From NCBI GenBank assembly GCA_039545295.1, contig BCIK01000024.1, positions 258,130 through 322,129 of the forward strand: a stretch of DNA of 64,000 nucleotides, written 5' to 3'. Positions 32,750 to 46,300 of the stretch are shown here, piece after piece. The stretch comes from Udeniomyces pyricola. Its lineage: Eukaryota; Basidiomycota; Tremellomycetes; Cystofilobasidiales; Mrakiaceae. Made by a program: the position numbers and the translations under genes. The notes beneath the pieces are model-generated. The model saw nothing but the letters and a program-made list of their open reading frames with translations. It had not been told where the DNA came from and did not search any database. Every line of letters begins with the position of its first letter. Within the stretch, counting starts at the first letter, position 1.

Positions 32750-34694
32750 TTAAGCCGAGATGGCAGCCTGAACCTTGTCCATGACACTCGTCTGGGCCGT
32801 CATGGGCGCGGCAAACTCCTTGCCCCTGCACGCGTCGAGGAAGTCGGTGAACATCTCGATCGTATCGAGCGGGCCACCGGCCGACTCAGGGTGGAACTGA
32901 ACACCCCAGATCTTCTTGCCCGAAGCCGGGGTCGAGATGATACCTTCGACGGAAGAATCGTTGGCCTAGATGACGGGAGGATAACACGGAACAGGAAAGG
33001 AAATAACAAAGATGATGAGTACCGCGTTCAGAATGGAGAAGAAGAAAACACAACGAAACTCAAATAAAGAAATCAAAGATCAGGGTCGACAAAGAACGTA
33101 CGTTGATGAACCAAGGCTCGAATCCATCGGGGAACTTCTCAGTCAACTCGACAGCGTACTGATGGTTCTGGGACTGTTACAACGAACAAACGGCGAACAA
33201 TTGTTAGGATCATGACATCCTTGACAAGAAAGAGACTTGAGTCAGACATGGACCAAGCAGGAAGAGGACGAACAGTAATGTAGACTCGACCCGACTTGAT
33301 GGAACCCGAGTTGGCGAGGGCAAGAACCGGCTGGTTGTGGCCTCGGTTACCGAACTGCATTCGGTAGACGTCCATGCCAGCGGCGAGACCAAGAATCTGG
33401 TTGCCCATGCTGTTACATTAGAAATCGCGGAATCCAATAAGACAAGTTCAGATGTATCAGCTTCCGATTTGGGGGTTCGAGTTTCGGGAGTTGAGTCCGA
33501 TGAGAGTCAGAACATAGCAAACAAGCATGTCCTTCAGACTAACCAAATACCAAAGACAGGTTTGTTCCACTCCTGGATCGTCTTTCGAACGTTCTCAACG
33601 GCGGGCATGATCGACTTGGGGTCACCAGGTCCGTTGGTGAGGAAGAGACCGTCGTACTAATGATTCAAACGAGCCGATGATCAAGGGACAAAAAGGGAAA
33701 GGAACGAACGAGGTTCATCACAGTAAGACTTGCGTTCGTGTCTCGTGCGATAAGAGAGAAAGTGCAACGACATCTACAAGATACGAACCTGGTCTCGCTC
33801 AGGGTTGAAGTCGTAGTTCCAGGGGAGGACAGTGACCTTAGCGTTTCGCTTGACGAGAGACCTCAAGATGTTGGCCTTGGTTCCAAAGTCGAGGACGGCA
33901 ATGTGAACGTCTCCGTCCGGGTTGAGGGTGTAGGGCTCCTTGGTCGAGACTCGGTCGATGAGGTTCTCCTTGCTGGGCTCCCAGTAGTCCTCTCGCTTGG
34001 GCGCGGGCTTGGCAACCTCCTCCTCTCCGACGGCAATCCTGCCGAGGGTCGTTCCCTGGTCTCGAAGAAGGGTCGTGACGGCTCGGGTGTCGATACCCGA
34101 GATTCCAGGGACGTTGTGTCGCTCGCACCACTCGTGAAGGGACTCGACGGCGAGGTAGTGAGAGTGCTTGAGCGCGACGTCAGTCACGATGACACCGGAG
34201 CACTTGACACCGTCAGACTCCATCTGAGGGATTCCCGGGATGGAATCGAGAGGCTTGTTGGAGGGGACACCATAGTTGCCAATGAGGGGCGAGGTGAAGA
34301 CGAGGATCTGACCAAGGTACGAGGGGTCGGTCATAGACTCGGTGTCTGCACGGCCAAGATGGTTTGAAATGGTTTGGAATTGGGTGAGTATGAGCAGCAG
34401 AAAACAAATGGCAAAGATGATATAGTAGGAGAGAGAGGAAGAAAAAAAAAGGGCGAGGCGCGAGGACTGACAGCTGGTGATGGAGGTCGAAAAGACGGTC
34501 TCGCCCCAGATGGACTTTTGGCTTCCGAAGCTCGTGCCGGTGAAGGACTGGCCCGACTGAAGGTGGAGCGTCGCCGGGATCGTCTTGGCGATCGTAGGCG
34601 GGACCGCAGTGGCCAGCGACCTCTGGAAGAGGGACGGAGTCGAAGCCGAGGCGGTCGCTCGTCGGGCAAAGTTGTTGAGAAGGGAGAAGGACAT
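32750..34694 (-). CDS. CPA1: Carbamoyl-phosphate synthase (arginine-specific), small glutaminase subunit
   Basis: Glutaminase subunit that feeds ammonia to the large subunit for carbamoyl phosphate and hence arginine. Six exons, complement of 32750-32965, 33102-33173, 33274-33409, 33544-33656, 33789-34345, 34472-34694; 1317 nt, 438 residues. The N-terminus (MSFSLLNNFARRATASAS, then SLFQRSLATAV) is a mitochondrial presequence, as in filamentous fungi and unlike yeast. Then TESMTDPSYLGQIL, SGIDTRAVTTLLRDQG and the amidotransferase fold VLDFGTKANI, LFLTNGPGDP, GIC|MGNQILGLA. The nucleophile Cys298 codon is split by an intron. QFHPESAGGP supplies His392 and Glu394. The start at 34694 has an ACCACCATG context. 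The leader carries a spliced attenuator-peptide ORF (see 34795-35112), so arginine-dependent translational control is expected. Confidence 0.95.
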
Positions 34695-34794
34695 GGTGGT
34701 GATGGCGAAAGTGAGGGGACGAGGCGAGGCGCGGGTGGGTTGGGTTTTTAAAAAGGTGGAAGGTCGGTTGTACGTGAGGGTGTGCGGAGAGGTT

Positions 34795-35112
34795 TCAAGG
34801 GGAGAGTTTGTAGATCTGCTCTGAGATGTAACTGTGAGGGTGGGAGGGTGAAGGAGGAAGAAGAAGGGAGTTTGCAAACGGAGGACCGAAGAGGCGCGCG
34901 GCAGGATAGAGGGAGAGAACGAGGGTGAGATACGAGAAAAAGTCGGACCAAGGGCGGAGAGGCAGTCGAGTCAGCACACAGTTGACCACACCAAGCTGGC
35001 CATAGCGTCCCCCTTGGGGGCCACGACGGGCGAGAGGGGGCAGGTGGCCCAAGGTTAAAGGGCAGTAGGATGGAACTGACTCTTGTGAGATGGTTTCGTC
35101 GAAAATAGGCAT
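34795..35112 (-). CDS. Spliced upstream ORF: arginine attenuator peptide in the CPA1 leader
   Basis: A leader ORF of two exons, complement of 34795-34831 and 35081-35112, 69 nt, encoding 22 residues. It begins MPIFDETI and continues SQDYISEQIYK before a short LSP end. The known fungal attenuator peptides of Neurospora arg-2 and yeast CPA1 share a core Q-D-Y-(L/I)-S-D-H-(L/I)-W. The match here is Q-D-Y-I-S identical, then E for D, Q for H, I, and Y for W. In the family the nascent peptide stalls the ribosome at its stop codon when arginine is high. The stop is 100 nt upstream of the CPA1 ATG. The intron (34832-35080, donor GTCAGT, acceptor CACAG) splits the Asp codon. The family link is strong, but arginine response here is inference. 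Confidence 0.85.
   Translation of the reverse strand: MPIFDETISQESVPSYCPLTLGHLPPLARRGPQGGRYGQLGVVNCVLTRLPLRPWSDFFSYLTLVLSLYPAARLFGPPFANSLLLPPSPSHPHSYISEQIYKLSP
34832..35080 (-). promoter_or_regulatory. In-frame leader intron inside the attenuator peptide ORF
   Basis: A 249-bp intron (83 x 3) with donor GTCAGT and acceptor CCTCACAG, read on the minus strand. It has no in-frame stop, so an unspliced leader encodes a 105-residue ORF ending in the same YISEQIYKLSP and the same stop. The QDY part of the stalling core exists only in spliced RNA. Confidence 0.75.
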
Positions 35113-35581
35113 CCAACGACGGGAGCGAGGTGATCAAGGAGGGAGTTGGGGAAGGGAGGCAGAGGCAAAAGCAAAGGCGAAGGTGAGGTCGAGGGTTCAA
35201 AGATAACGATGGCGAGGTGTTTTGGTTGGATCCATATAATATATAATCCACTCGTCCAACCTTTCACATGCCATTTCACATCATGTTACCTGATGTTACA
35301 TGTCACCGATTACATATCACTCAATGTGACACATGTCACCGATTACATATCACTCAATGTGACACATGTCCTCTGTGACATGTCACACATGTCACGACTC
35401 ATCTGACAGGGTTACTACCAATCACATCACTTGTTGCATCAATCAACATCATATCATTATCCTGCGCCGATTCATATTCATCTCATGTGCATGCCCCTTT
35501 CGGCAGCTGCTTGCTTGCCCACCCACCCACGTACATCCACCGTCTCGTGAACACACCCATCAATCCTCTAATTTCTTCAAC
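35113..35581. promoter_or_regulatory. Divergent promoter region CPA1 / THO1 with TGTCAC-rich repeats
   Basis: 469 bp between the attenuator ORF and the THO1 ATG. It contains the 33-bp tandem repeat and many TGTCAC/GTGACA and ACATGT elements in both orientations (35283-35396). No gene is supported. Confidence 0.55.
35301..35366. repeat. Perfect 33-bp tandem duplication with inverted TGTCAC/GTGACA motifs
   Basis: Two identical 33-bp units at 35301-35333 and 35334-35366, each starting TGTCACCGATTACATATCAC and ending GTGACACA. Related fragments flank both sides (GTTACATG before, GTGACATGTCACACATGTCAC after). The units create the imperfect palindrome GTGACACATGTCAC at each junction. Confidence 0.9.
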
Positions 35582-37128
35582 ATGTCCGCCACTCAACACA
35601 CCGAAACATCGCTGTCAGTCTTCCCCTCCAGTGCTGCTGCTTAGACCCCAGAATCCCTCCCATTCTCGTCCCTGTTTTTGTCTCTTCCCCAAACTCACAC
35701 CCCTCCCTCGCTCATCCGCTGGAAAAGGAAAGCGCTCACCGTCCCCAAGCTCAAGGAGATCCTCGTTTCCAAGTCGGAGCCAGTCACCGGCAACAAGGCT
35801 GACCTCATCGCGCGGATCCTTCAAACCCAAGAAGTCAAGAACGATTTTGACCCCCTTGTGAGTTGGCTTCTTTGCCAGTCCACATCACTAGCCATCATCG
35901 CTGGCCATCACGGTCTGCTGCCCTCGTCCCCGCTCTTCTTGGTCAACGACGCGTACGCGTCGTGCGCTTGCCATGAGGTTTCTCGAGCTCCCCCAACGGC
36001 AACCTACCTACACATTTGATGATTCCATTCTGGCCGTCGTGGAGGACCATGCACTATCTCCCATGACGTACTCTGCCTCGCATCGCGCTCACGTTCGTCC
36101 ATCGATTGGCGGCGACTGACACGTCCATTCTTCCTCTTCCCCTCCGTGCCCATCACGATCCGACTATTTTGCGTTGGTAGCTCGCCCCTCCCGACGACTT
36201 TGACTGGGAAAACGATGAATCTGCTGCCAATTCGATCGCGTCGGCTGCTACCCCCGTTGAGGCTACCAAGACGACCGCTCCTGTCGCCCCCACTGTACGC
36301 CCATCCCTTGCATCTTTGCCTCCAATGGATGGTCAAAACTCGTTGTCGAGGTTTGTTCGCTGATCTTTCTTACATTACATCACCCAGACTACCCCTTCGG
36401 AACCGCTTGCTGCCCCTATCGTGACGCCAGTCTCAGCTGCGGCTGAGGCCTCGGCACCTTCGACCTCCTTAACGGCTGAAGTCGCTTCCAAACCAGCCGC
36501 GACGGCCTCCACCAGCTCGCCCTCGGTCACCGCTCCCAAATCAACAGTCGCGTCCTCGACAAATGATGACATTGAAAAGAAGAAGGCCAGGGCTGCCCGG
36601 TTCGGAGTCGTAAGTCGATTCGCTACGGATGCCTAGGAAGGGTTGGAACGCGTCGTCCAGCTGTACTCTTGCAACCGCGTCGTCGTTCTTCTTCTCCGTC
36701 TTTTCTTTTATGGTTGCTCATTCTTTTTACACTCTTGATTGGCTTTACTCTGTAGCCTTACATTGAGAAGGCTGCTCCTACACCTCCCAAACCTCGCACG
36801 TCCAAGCTCCCCCCTGCCTCTGCGGCTGTTCTCCCTCCTGCACCCAAGACGGCTAAGGGTTCTGCCGCTGCATCGAAGAAGCTGACCGAGAAGCCGGTGG
36901 ATCCAGTCGAAGAGGAGAAGAAGAGGAAGCGTGCTGAGAAGTTTGGTGTTGTGGGAACCCCCGTAAGTTTGACTGGTTCGGTTGTCTTTCGGCTCGGATA
37001 TTCGATGTACCGGTTAGTTGGTTTGCATACCCTGCTGATTGACAGCGAGTTTTCTCTTCTTTTCTTTTTTTTGCTTGCGTCCATCGTCTCTCTTGGACTC
37101 ATAGGCGGACAAGAAGACCAAGGCTTAG
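35582..37128 (+). CDS. THO1: SAP-domain mRNP biogenesis protein, Tho1/CIP29 (SARNP) family
   Basis: Nuclear nucleic-acid-binding protein linked to transcription elongation and mRNA export. Six exons: 35582-35613, 35728-35857, 36181-36294, 36388-36609, 36756-36962, 37105-37128; 729 nt, 242 residues. The SAP domain is at about 12-46 (LTVPKLKEILVSK, then GNKADLIARILQ). It is followed by an acidic patch (DDFDWENDES) and an Ala/Pro/Thr/Ser-rich linker. Two C-terminal basic motifs follow: KKKARAARFGVPY and KKRKRAEKFGVVG, typical of the Tho1 C-terminal RNA-binding part. The last exon has 24 nt and encodes ADKKTKA. The acceptor of exon 2 (GGAAAAG) has a poor pyrimidine tract but is the only one that keeps the SAP frame. 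Confidence 0.88.
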
Positions 37129-43348: not shown

Positions 43349-46300
43349 TCAGACCTTTCCAATGTCACCGTCATCACTCGGAGATGGCTTGGCCTTGGAC
43401 GGATCAACACCTCCCCTACCACGTCGAGTCCCGGTTACGCCTCCACCTTGTTGAGTACCGCCCCTAGATCGATGGGGTTTGGACGTCGAAGATTTAGGCT
43501 GTTGCTGTTGCTGGATCTGATCATTGGATGTTCCTTCAAGGGAAGGTTTAGCATCGAGTGATGATGTAGAAACGCCGAGAGTAGTCGGCATTTCAGTAAG
43601 AGGATCATTCGCTGGACCGACAGAGTTGATGCCAACTGTGAACGATGCGGTAGGGTATCGCGAGGTAGAGGAGAACTTTGGATCCTTGTTCGATGTTGAA
43701 TGTTCGGTAGCCTGATGAGTCTGTTCGGTCTTGGATTGACCAGTTGCCTACAGGACGAGAAACAGAAGATAAGAACTGTCTCAGTAAAAAATGACGGTGT
43801 CACAACATCCATGTAACACAATAGAGGCGAACTGACATGAATGGACCCGGCTAGACTGGGTTTCCCCTTGGCTCTCGTTGTAGTGGCGTTGACCGGCTTC
43901 GGAGGCTGTGAAGGCTGTGAGATGGACCAGCATATACATTAGCTAGCTGGTAGAGAATGCGATAGGAAGTAATAGATCAAACTCGTCATCCGAGCAGCCA
44001 AGGGTCTAGATCGCTTACCTCTCCAAATCTGGCCTCAAGCTGATCAAGTGTCAAGGCTTCACTGTTTTTAGTTTCCTTAGGCGGCGCAGGTATTGCGGCA
44101 CGTCTGACAGTACCTCCAGTTCCTTTTTGGCTGACGGATTCGGGTTGACATTTGGGTTTGGGTCCTTTCGACTCGGCTTTGATCATCATTACACGCTGCT
44201 CCTTCTCCCGATCAGACCTCTCTCGCTCCAGCCTGTCCTCTTTATGTTGCCTCCAGCTGCCAATATTGGTTGAGTGACCTGCGACAAAACTGCTCGTCTT
44301 CTTTTCTTCCCCTGCAGCATTTCCCGAGCGTCCTACCACCTGTTCCATAACCGCTTTCCTTTCTCTGGCGATGATGCCGTCTCCTTCTACGCCCAGAGCA
44401 ACAGTAGCTTGCTCCCATCGAATTGCTCGATCCATGGCCTCTAAAGCCCGCTCGCCCAATGTCTTTGGTTTGCCCGACATATTGGCTTTGGGACCCGACT
44501 TACGAGCCAGGCGGAATCCAGGCGGATTTCCAGCAGGAAGAAAGATGGCTTCGTTGTCAGACGAGGTGAAGCGCGCGAGGGCCGTCGAGATAGGTGGCGA
44601 TTCGGTTGAGGACGAGATAGTCGACGAGGCGGCCGAAGGGAGTGAGACGGGATAAGAGAATGATCTGAAGTCGTTGCCACCTCCGGCATGGGCGACCCCT
44701 TTCCCGCTCGTGACTGTCGCTCGAGCGAGGATTGCTCGTTCGAGAGCGGAGTGCTCGATAGGAGGGGCTGTAGGGCTTCGACTATGCGAGAGTGTAGGGG
44801 CTAATGGCGCGTTGAGCCGATCCGTGAGATGATGACGAAAAGAAGACGATTGACTCAGCCGCAGGGGAGAAGGAGCAGTGAGCGTGAGGAACGGAAGGTT
44901 GCCGGTCGTCAAGCGAGTGGAAGTACCAGAGGTGAGAAAGCTTGGATCGACCATGTAGTCTTGCTGTTGTTGATCATATGCCGCCAAGGGAAGAGCATAT
45001 TCGTCAAACGGTGTGTGATGTGAGAGTTGGAGAAGGCGGTCCATCTGAGCTGTCTGCTGAGAAATGGACTGGCTCGGATGATAGTCGGCAGCGTACAAAG
45101 GTTGTTGAGAAAGCACGTCAGATGAAAAAGCACAAGCGAAATCTGTCGAGATCGATGATGATGGGGTCATCTCGGTTGGGAATTGGAGACCAAGAATCTG
45201 ACTGGCAAGACGGTTGATCAAGTTGCTGTCGGACAGCAGGCTCACATTCTGAGCCACATCGAGCTGAGCGGCAGTAGGTCCATCCGGGTCTCTTTGGCGC
45301 ATCTGTATTTGCGTCTGATGTTGCTGCTGCTGCTGTCGGATGAGCTGAAGATGTTGCGGGATGGTTATCTCAGCAGGAGGGAGCGAGGCATCATTGTTGT
45401 TAATCGACAGATGATGAGAATGCGATAGGGAGTTGGAAGGAAGCGGAAGGATTTGGAAAGCTGGCTCAGCATGGGATGGCAATTGGCTTTGTCGAGGCAG
45501 AGGGGAAGATTCGGCGAGGGCAAGACGAGAAGAGTAATATTCGCTTGGGTCGTAGACGGGCTGGACCAGGGTCGGATGCGACTGTGACTGGCGAGCAGTG
45601 TCTACGTCGATCGGGCCGACATGGGTGGATGAAGCAAGGGTCGGGGGTGCGAGCGTGGCTCGAATCGAGTGAGAGGCCCCGTGGAATGACCTGCTGATCG
45701 GAACAACGTAAGCTGACGGATGGGCGTAGGCAGTCGAGCTGGAGGTTGCCTCGTGTGATGTTCTGGCAGCAGCCCCACCGCCCACACGGCGTTGAAAGTG
45801 AAGGTGGTCAACGTGCTGAGTGACGTGGGATAATAAAAAATGCGAGGACGAATGCGTTAGTGAGCCAACGAGCTCCTGATACATAACGAGTGGGAAGAAG
45901 CGACACCTACCTCAGGCTCTGGGTCACCAGGAGAAGGATGCCAAACGTTCAATCGTCCGTCAGCGTCGATGACAGAGCCATCAACTCCACTATGCGGTCA
46001 AATCAAATACCAGGATTATGTTCGGTATCTCAGCAGACCACTCAATATGTGCTATGAAAGCGAACAACGTCGAAGTTAGCAGATGCATGACGCTCACGAT
46101 GGGTTCCGCGCGTAAGGCAGCGACTCAGGCCCAACCATGACTGGGATCCTCTTCCCACGAAGCCTCTCGCGCTGAGACGTCGGTTTCCTTTTCTTGGAAC
46201 TGGCCGAAGAGGTTACATCGTCCGAGGTAGCTAAAACCTCCTCAGCTTTCCTTTCCTCTCTATAGTCATCGGACCTAGCAGAGAGATACTCTGCCTGGGA

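Follow-up and report, generated by a model that had tools for sequence, protein, structure and literature searches.

A candidate arginine attenuator in the CPA1 leader of Udeniomyces pyricola, with a core that would be built by splicing

The leader of the CPA1 gene of Udeniomyces pyricola contains, on the minus strand of the 64,000-nucleotide stretch of DNA analyzed here (the window), an upstream open reading frame (uORF) that we interpret as a divergent CPA1 arginine attenuator whose core would be built by splicing, a reading that we consider probable. Fungal arg-2/CPA1 attenuators work through a stall at the uORF stop codon when arginine is plentiful, together with leaky scanning and mRNA decay. 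Conserved uORFs for arginine attenuator peptides (AAPs) have long been known, and introns within uORFs are not unusual as such. In U. pyricola, the key Asp codon exists only after intron removal, so that the brake should work on spliced messages only.

Results

Organization of the leader uORF

The leader is organized as follows.

35232..35247, minus strand: TATA-like A+T run ATTATATATTATATGG, a probable core promoter as judged from its sequence
35112..35081, minus strand: uORF exon 1, 32 nt, ending TCACAAGA and coding MPIFDETISQ plus the GA of the Asp codon
35080..34832, minus strand: putative leader intron, 249 nt, GTCAGT...CCCTCACAG, with a pyrimidine-rich 3' end
34831..34795, minus strand: uORF exon 2, 37 nt including TGA, with the final base of the Asp codon and then YISEQIYKLSP
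34794..34695, minus strand: intercistronic spacer between the uORF and CPA1, 100 nt, without ATG

Exon 1 ends TCA CAA GA before GTCAGT, exon 2 begins T TAC ATC TCA after the acceptor, and joined they translate on the minus strand to MPIFDETISQDYISEQIYKLSP, a peptide of 22 aa whose Asp codon (GA|T) is split over the junction. The earlier note had given the uORF ATG at 35112, the exon ends, the 22 residues and a stop 100 nt before the CPA1 ATG, and all these coordinates hold. Its proposal that the Asp codon is created across the junction was likewise confirmed, GAT being read in the spliced form and AGT (Ser) at the same place in the unspliced one, and the spliced translation bears out that DYIS is kept and followed by E-Q-I-Y-K.

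The uORF ATG lies approximately 120 nt downstream of the TATA-like run and is the sole ATG of the spliced leader between this box and CPA1. An extra ATG at 35235, inside the TATA-like run, would open a 12-codon ORF if transcribed. Since the CPA1 ATG is at 34694, the spacer extends over 100 nt. In attenuators, the uORF start is as a rule in a weak context and the main start in a strong one, and the start context of the Neurospora arg-2 uORF is weak, as in the leader uORF. Here, the uORF ATG stands in CGTTGG-ATG-C, weak with T at -3, and the CPA1 ATG in ACCACC-ATG-T, strong with A at -3, which fits the requirement for leaky scanning.

An RNA element in the leader was also considered and dropped. 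The spliced stretch from the uORF ATG to the CPA1 ATG has no stable fold (z +0.32; 122 of 200 shuffles were at least as stable), and an Rfam scan of the leader returned no family, the best match, mir-392 (E 0.65), reaching 20.3 bits compared to a gathering score of 62.

On the promoter side, between CPA1 and a divergent gene with a SAP domain (35678-36016, plus strand; PF02037, E 1.2e-9), we observed a 33-bp tandem repeat (35298-35370; 2.2 copies with 100% identity) in which ACATGTCAC/TGACATGT motifs, possibly binding sites, abound.

The downstream gene

The gene downstream of the uORF was modeled as follows.

34694..32750, minus strand: CPA1 coding region, 438 aa, six exons and 5 introns
34694-34472, 34345-33789, 33656-33544, 33409-33274, 33173-33102 and 32965-32750, minus strand: CPA1 exons, with introns placed by protein homology

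This complete 438-aa model passes TIGR01368, which in NCBIfam represents the small subunit of the glutamine-hydrolysing carbamoyl-phosphate synthase, with 394.8 bits for a cut-off of 307.35. In the homologue search, 7,999 candidates were scored and 7,468 had E <= 0.001; the closest match among the best 120 of these 7,468 was a protein of equal length from Phaffia rhodozyma, a Tremellomycete of the order Cystofilobasidiales, with 77% identity over 100% of the query. The model, the family score and this identity uphold the earlier naming of the gene as a real CPA1. The product is predicted to be the arginine-type carbamoyl-phosphate synthase small subunit, and its composition suggests a mitochondrial-type N-terminus. 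PF00988 matches two places in the genome, CPA1 and one locus on contig C3 that presumably encodes the pyrimidine enzyme. A search of viral_contigs with CPA1 turned up no relative among its 5 pattern matches.

Neither QDY nor DY[ILV][SAT] occurs in the first 90 residues of the best 120 of 7,468 CPA1 homologues, which indicates that none of these is a misannotated uORF fusion; this check of N-termini is silent about the leaders of those genes. CPA1 intron 1 (34346-34471, minus strand, 126 nt) is also an open multiple of three, and its retention would add 42 in-frame residues.

Splice sites of the leader intron

The introns 1-5 of CPA1, of 100-136 nt, use the donors GTCAGT, GTTCGT, GTTAGT, GTTCGT and GTACGT, which are all GTNNGT, and the leader donor GTCAGT is that of CPA1 intron 1. 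At the 3' end, the AG that follows the pyrimidine run is the sole one within the final 164 nt of the intron, and the leader acceptor is unambiguous. With its GTNNGT donor, its YAG acceptor and no rival AG, the leader intron agrees with the spliceosomal pattern of this genome.

Independently of CPA1, we applied a coding-drop test, recording where the coding signal falls just after a GT. Such a drop was observed for 118 of 231 GTNNGT sites overall compared to 1,008 of 3,482 for the rest, with 27/31 for GTGAGT, 9/12 for GTAAGT, 19/26 for GTACGT and 11/16 for GTGCGT. GTCAGT showed the drop in 8 of 18 cases and the remaining GTC donors in 434 of 1,762 (binomial P 0.05), suggesting that GTCAGT is a minor donor with a borderline enrichment; GTTCGT, the donor of two CPA1 introns, was not enriched in the same test (11/33). 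We infer that the leader is spliced from GTCAGT to the unambiguous acceptor.

The leader intron, at 249 nt, is about double the length of the introns of the CPA1 coding sequence. According to the accessible text on Cryptococcus introns, leader introns average 118.3 nt in that genus versus 63.4 nt for introns generally, and 3'UTR introns are likewise longer, so that the length of the leader intron appears in character.

Homology-free splice models were tried as well. A search on coding flanks gave 4 introns and then 371 noisy ones, and was abandoned. An iterated model drifted to GTC codons within coding sequence, 14 of its 120 chosen donors being GTNNGT. Against the spliced reading, it scored the leader donor at -0.27, which 77% of the GTs of the strand equal or better, and the leader acceptor at 2.15 (38% of AGs equal or better). 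The same model gave -0.4 to one homology-placed CPA1 donor and was replaced by the coding-drop test and the CPA1 introns.

Rarity of the attenuator-like core

We compared the leader peptide with a set of ATG-started peptides of 18-30 aa, read without splicing or after removal of a single GTNNG[TG]...YAG intron (40-400 nt), from both strands of 264 kb, i.e., the window and 20 further 10-kb stretches, each from another contig (20 of the 38 contigs of this 25.0 Mb genome were sampled for background peptides). This set comprised 8,701 peptides (1,466 unspliced; 8,527 distinct), to which a core score was given by BLOSUM62 comparison with the Neurospora and yeast attenuator cores of ten residues each. 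The leader peptide ranked first of the 8,701 with a score of 39, compared to 29 for the next. With a profile built from the Neurospora and yeast peptides alone, it was first of the 8,527 distinct peptides at E 0.004 (next, 0.29), and with the Neurospora AAP as sole query it was again first, though with a much weaker E of 0.67 (next, 3). The leader (35250-34695) was also subjected to 3,000 dinucleotide shuffles, in which any GT could serve as donor; the highest core score among them was 24, short of the 39 of the leader peptide, and QDY[ILV]S was absent from all. These results establish both the core similarity and its rarity: the likeness to the attenuator core exceeds chance, and the strongest point is the location of the top match, in the single leader that should carry a peptide of this kind.

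Since QDY[ILV]S was found in 2 of the 8,701 candidate peptides, the leader peptide being one, the bare motif would not suffice for the claim. The other, MTEPSTPLCGQIKYQDYLSFPLYSHRT, starts at an ATG near 45969 on the plus strand of the window, uses a hypothetical intron to about 46245 and has a core score of 26; we take it as due to chance.

Coincidence, with a leader that is unspliced or otherwise spliced and a QDYIS core that is the chance product of a hypothetical junction, seems very unlikely to us. The minor type of the donor and the one further occurrence of QDY[ILV]S among 8,701 peptides speak for it, but it would have to account for so rare a core in the one gene expected to carry such a leader peptide, which a rough estimate (7e-8 per 10-mer x ~13 positions x 5 possible leader peptides) puts at ~5e-6.

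Under the GTNNG[TG]...YAG rule, the leader can yield 2 peptides of 18-30 aa, of which the attenuator-like peptide is one. On the same strand, an ATG at 35003 within the leader intron, joined from a donor at 34977 to the acceptor at 34832, would give MASLVWSTVYISEQIYKLSP, with an identical tail and without QD.

Comparison with known attenuator peptides

The gene context is that of the AAPs, a uORF in the leader of an arginine-specific carbamoyl-phosphate synthase small-subunit gene, and the Q-D-Y-(L/I)-S core with its critical Asp and Tyr is present in the spliced form only. The Neurospora crassa arg-2 AAP (24 aa; PDB 2xl1) is alike in its place in the leader of a CPA1 orthologue, in an S-Q-D-Y-(L/I)-S core toward the C-terminal end and in a stop near the core end. 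It differs in having DHLWR in place of EQIYK, with 4/10 core identities, and may also differ with respect to the intron that splits the Asp codon of the leader uORF. The place of Neurospora Asp16-His17, a segment conserved in the Neurospora and yeast peptides, is taken by Glu-Gln, and that of Trp19 by Tyr18. The leader peptide has 22 aa compared to 24-25 in known AAPs, two residues fewer than that of Neurospora, and 11 residues, not 12, follow its Asp, one missing at the C-terminus. The Saccharomyces cerevisiae CPA1 uORF, which is intronless, encodes a 25-aa peptide that is alike in its CPA1 leader, in an identical QDYIS and in 7/10 identities over the core QDYISEQIYK, and unlike in its DHIW (EQIY in the leader peptide) and its longer N-terminus. 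The yeast sequence used here is supported by its match to 2xl1. Scored against each other, the yeast and Neurospora cores reach 53, compared to the 39 of the leader peptide.

In the available text of PMC3130931, the critical residues of the Neurospora peptide are Asp12, Tyr13, a residue printed as Lys14, and Trp19. A phmmer search with the leader peptide of the PDB sequences, which include 2xl1, gave nothing at E up to 10. Given Tyr for Trp19, Glu-Gln, the shorter length and this absence of a PDB match, we describe the leader peptide as AAP-like and probably homologous, not as a proven AAP member.

The spliced uORF could be real and AAP-derived and yet have lost arginine sensing, acting as a constitutive or weak repressor. 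With Tyr in the place of the critical Trp19 (PMC3130931, available text) and a core score well under that of yeast against Neurospora, this has some appeal, but the Trp-to-Tyr and Asp-His-to-Glu-Gln changes are conservative, and the retention of Q, D, Y, I/L and S together is unexplained by selection on a non-functional peptide. We regard such a loss as unlikely, while giving it some weight.

Three further systems bear on the reading of an arginine attenuator, each as described in the accessible parts of the reports. In Cryptococcus, also in the Tremellomycetes, the CPA1 (CND01050) uORF is heavily occupied by ribosomes and represses the main ORF, and a 5-fold rise of the mRNA in upf1-delta links it to nonsense-mediated decay (PMC7049704). 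These data indicate that the class to which U. pyricola belongs has AAP-type control; the Cryptococcus uORF may or may not be intron-split. The XBP1u peptide is also ribosome-arresting and intron-dependent in its presence (PMC10501990, PMC6624018), in the opposite sense, as removal of a 26-nt intron replaces the arrest peptide whereas in the leader uORF removal creates the core; moreover, XBP1u splicing is cytoplasmic, by IRE1, and concerns a main ORF and not a uORF. The Toxoplasma ApiAT1 uORF is arginine-responsive and AAP-like with an essential Asp, but has 33 aa and belongs to a transporter gene, and its authors suggest convergence (PMC8370653).

The intron-retained form

The leader intron is a multiple of 3 without in-frame stop, so the unspliced frame is also open.

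35112..34795, minus strand: unspliced uORF, 105 aa, with the start and stop of the spliced form

It reads ...HSYISEQIYKLSP, with Ser (AGT) before YIS where the spliced form has Asp. A search with this 105-aa ORF as query returned 6 candidates, of which none had E <= 1. The open 249-nt intron was considered as a sign of selection, and this was rejected, as 6,504 of 20,000 shuffles of the intron were also stop-free. Lacking the Asp, an unspliced leader should be unable to attenuate, and the intron-retained form would be arginine-blind.

An mRNA population in which the intron-retained form predominates, the 105-aa uORF merely lowering CPA1 translation and attenuation coming from a minor spliced fraction, would suit a fully open retained ORF and a donor of minor type. 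The shuffles show that openness is to be expected, however, the acceptor is good and the similarity to the attenuator core is confined to the spliced form, and we give this explanation hardly any credence. A related proposal, that regulated splicing of this weak-donor intron is a switch between an arginine-sensing 22-aa form and an arginine-blind 105-aa form, is speculative and in our judgment rather improbable; if true, nuclear RNA processing would decide whether the ribosome can sense arginine.

Discussion

Our results favor the reading of the leader uORF as a CPA1 attenuator with a splice-built core. The sequence and the anatomy of the splice sites are established. The claim of the earlier note, an attenuator-type uORF with a splice-made Asp, stands as regards gene, position, a single ATG in weak context, core likeness and splice sites, and is weakened where the peptide departs from the known ones, Trp19 being Tyr and the length 22, not 24-25 aa.

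From the DNA, we infer splicing, translation, stalling and an arginine response of the leader uORF along the following lines. The leader would be transcribed from the TATA-like box, and removal of the 249-nt intron would join GA to T into the Asp codon of the QDYIS core. The product of ribosomes initiating at the weak-context uORF ATG would then be the 22-aa peptide. When arginine is abundant, this nascent chain would stall the ribosome at the uORF stop, barring scanning ribosomes from CPA1 and probably exposing the CPA1 mRNA to nonsense-mediated decay; with scarce arginine, leaky scanning and termination would permit CPA1 synthesis. For known attenuators, the accessible portions of the literature describe arginine-dependent stalling and leaky scanning (PMC11550727), an Asp-to-Asn control in yeast (PMC7969011) and an essential Asp in an arginine-responsive uORF (PMC8370653).

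AAP-type regulation in basidiomycetes is not new, as the available text on Cryptococcus CPA1 describes it (PMC7049704). A text search with the peptide cores found no attenuator paper among the matches listed. The Hood et al. 2007 survey, the one most likely to describe intron-split attenuators, is outside the scope of the accessible open-licence literature in which we found no attenuator core described as intron-split, and priority for a splice-built core is unproven.

If the junction is used, a residue indispensable to known attenuators is encoded by no single exon, and the translational sensor would exist only post-splicing. Arginine feedback would thereby be tied to splicing, unspliced CPA1 mRNA being arginine-blind by design or accident. 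The EQIYK end would make the leader peptide a natural probe of the extent to which the DH(L/I)W segment is needed for the arginine response. If the reading is true, attenuators built in this way will go unnoticed when conserved uORFs are sought in unspliced genomic DNA.
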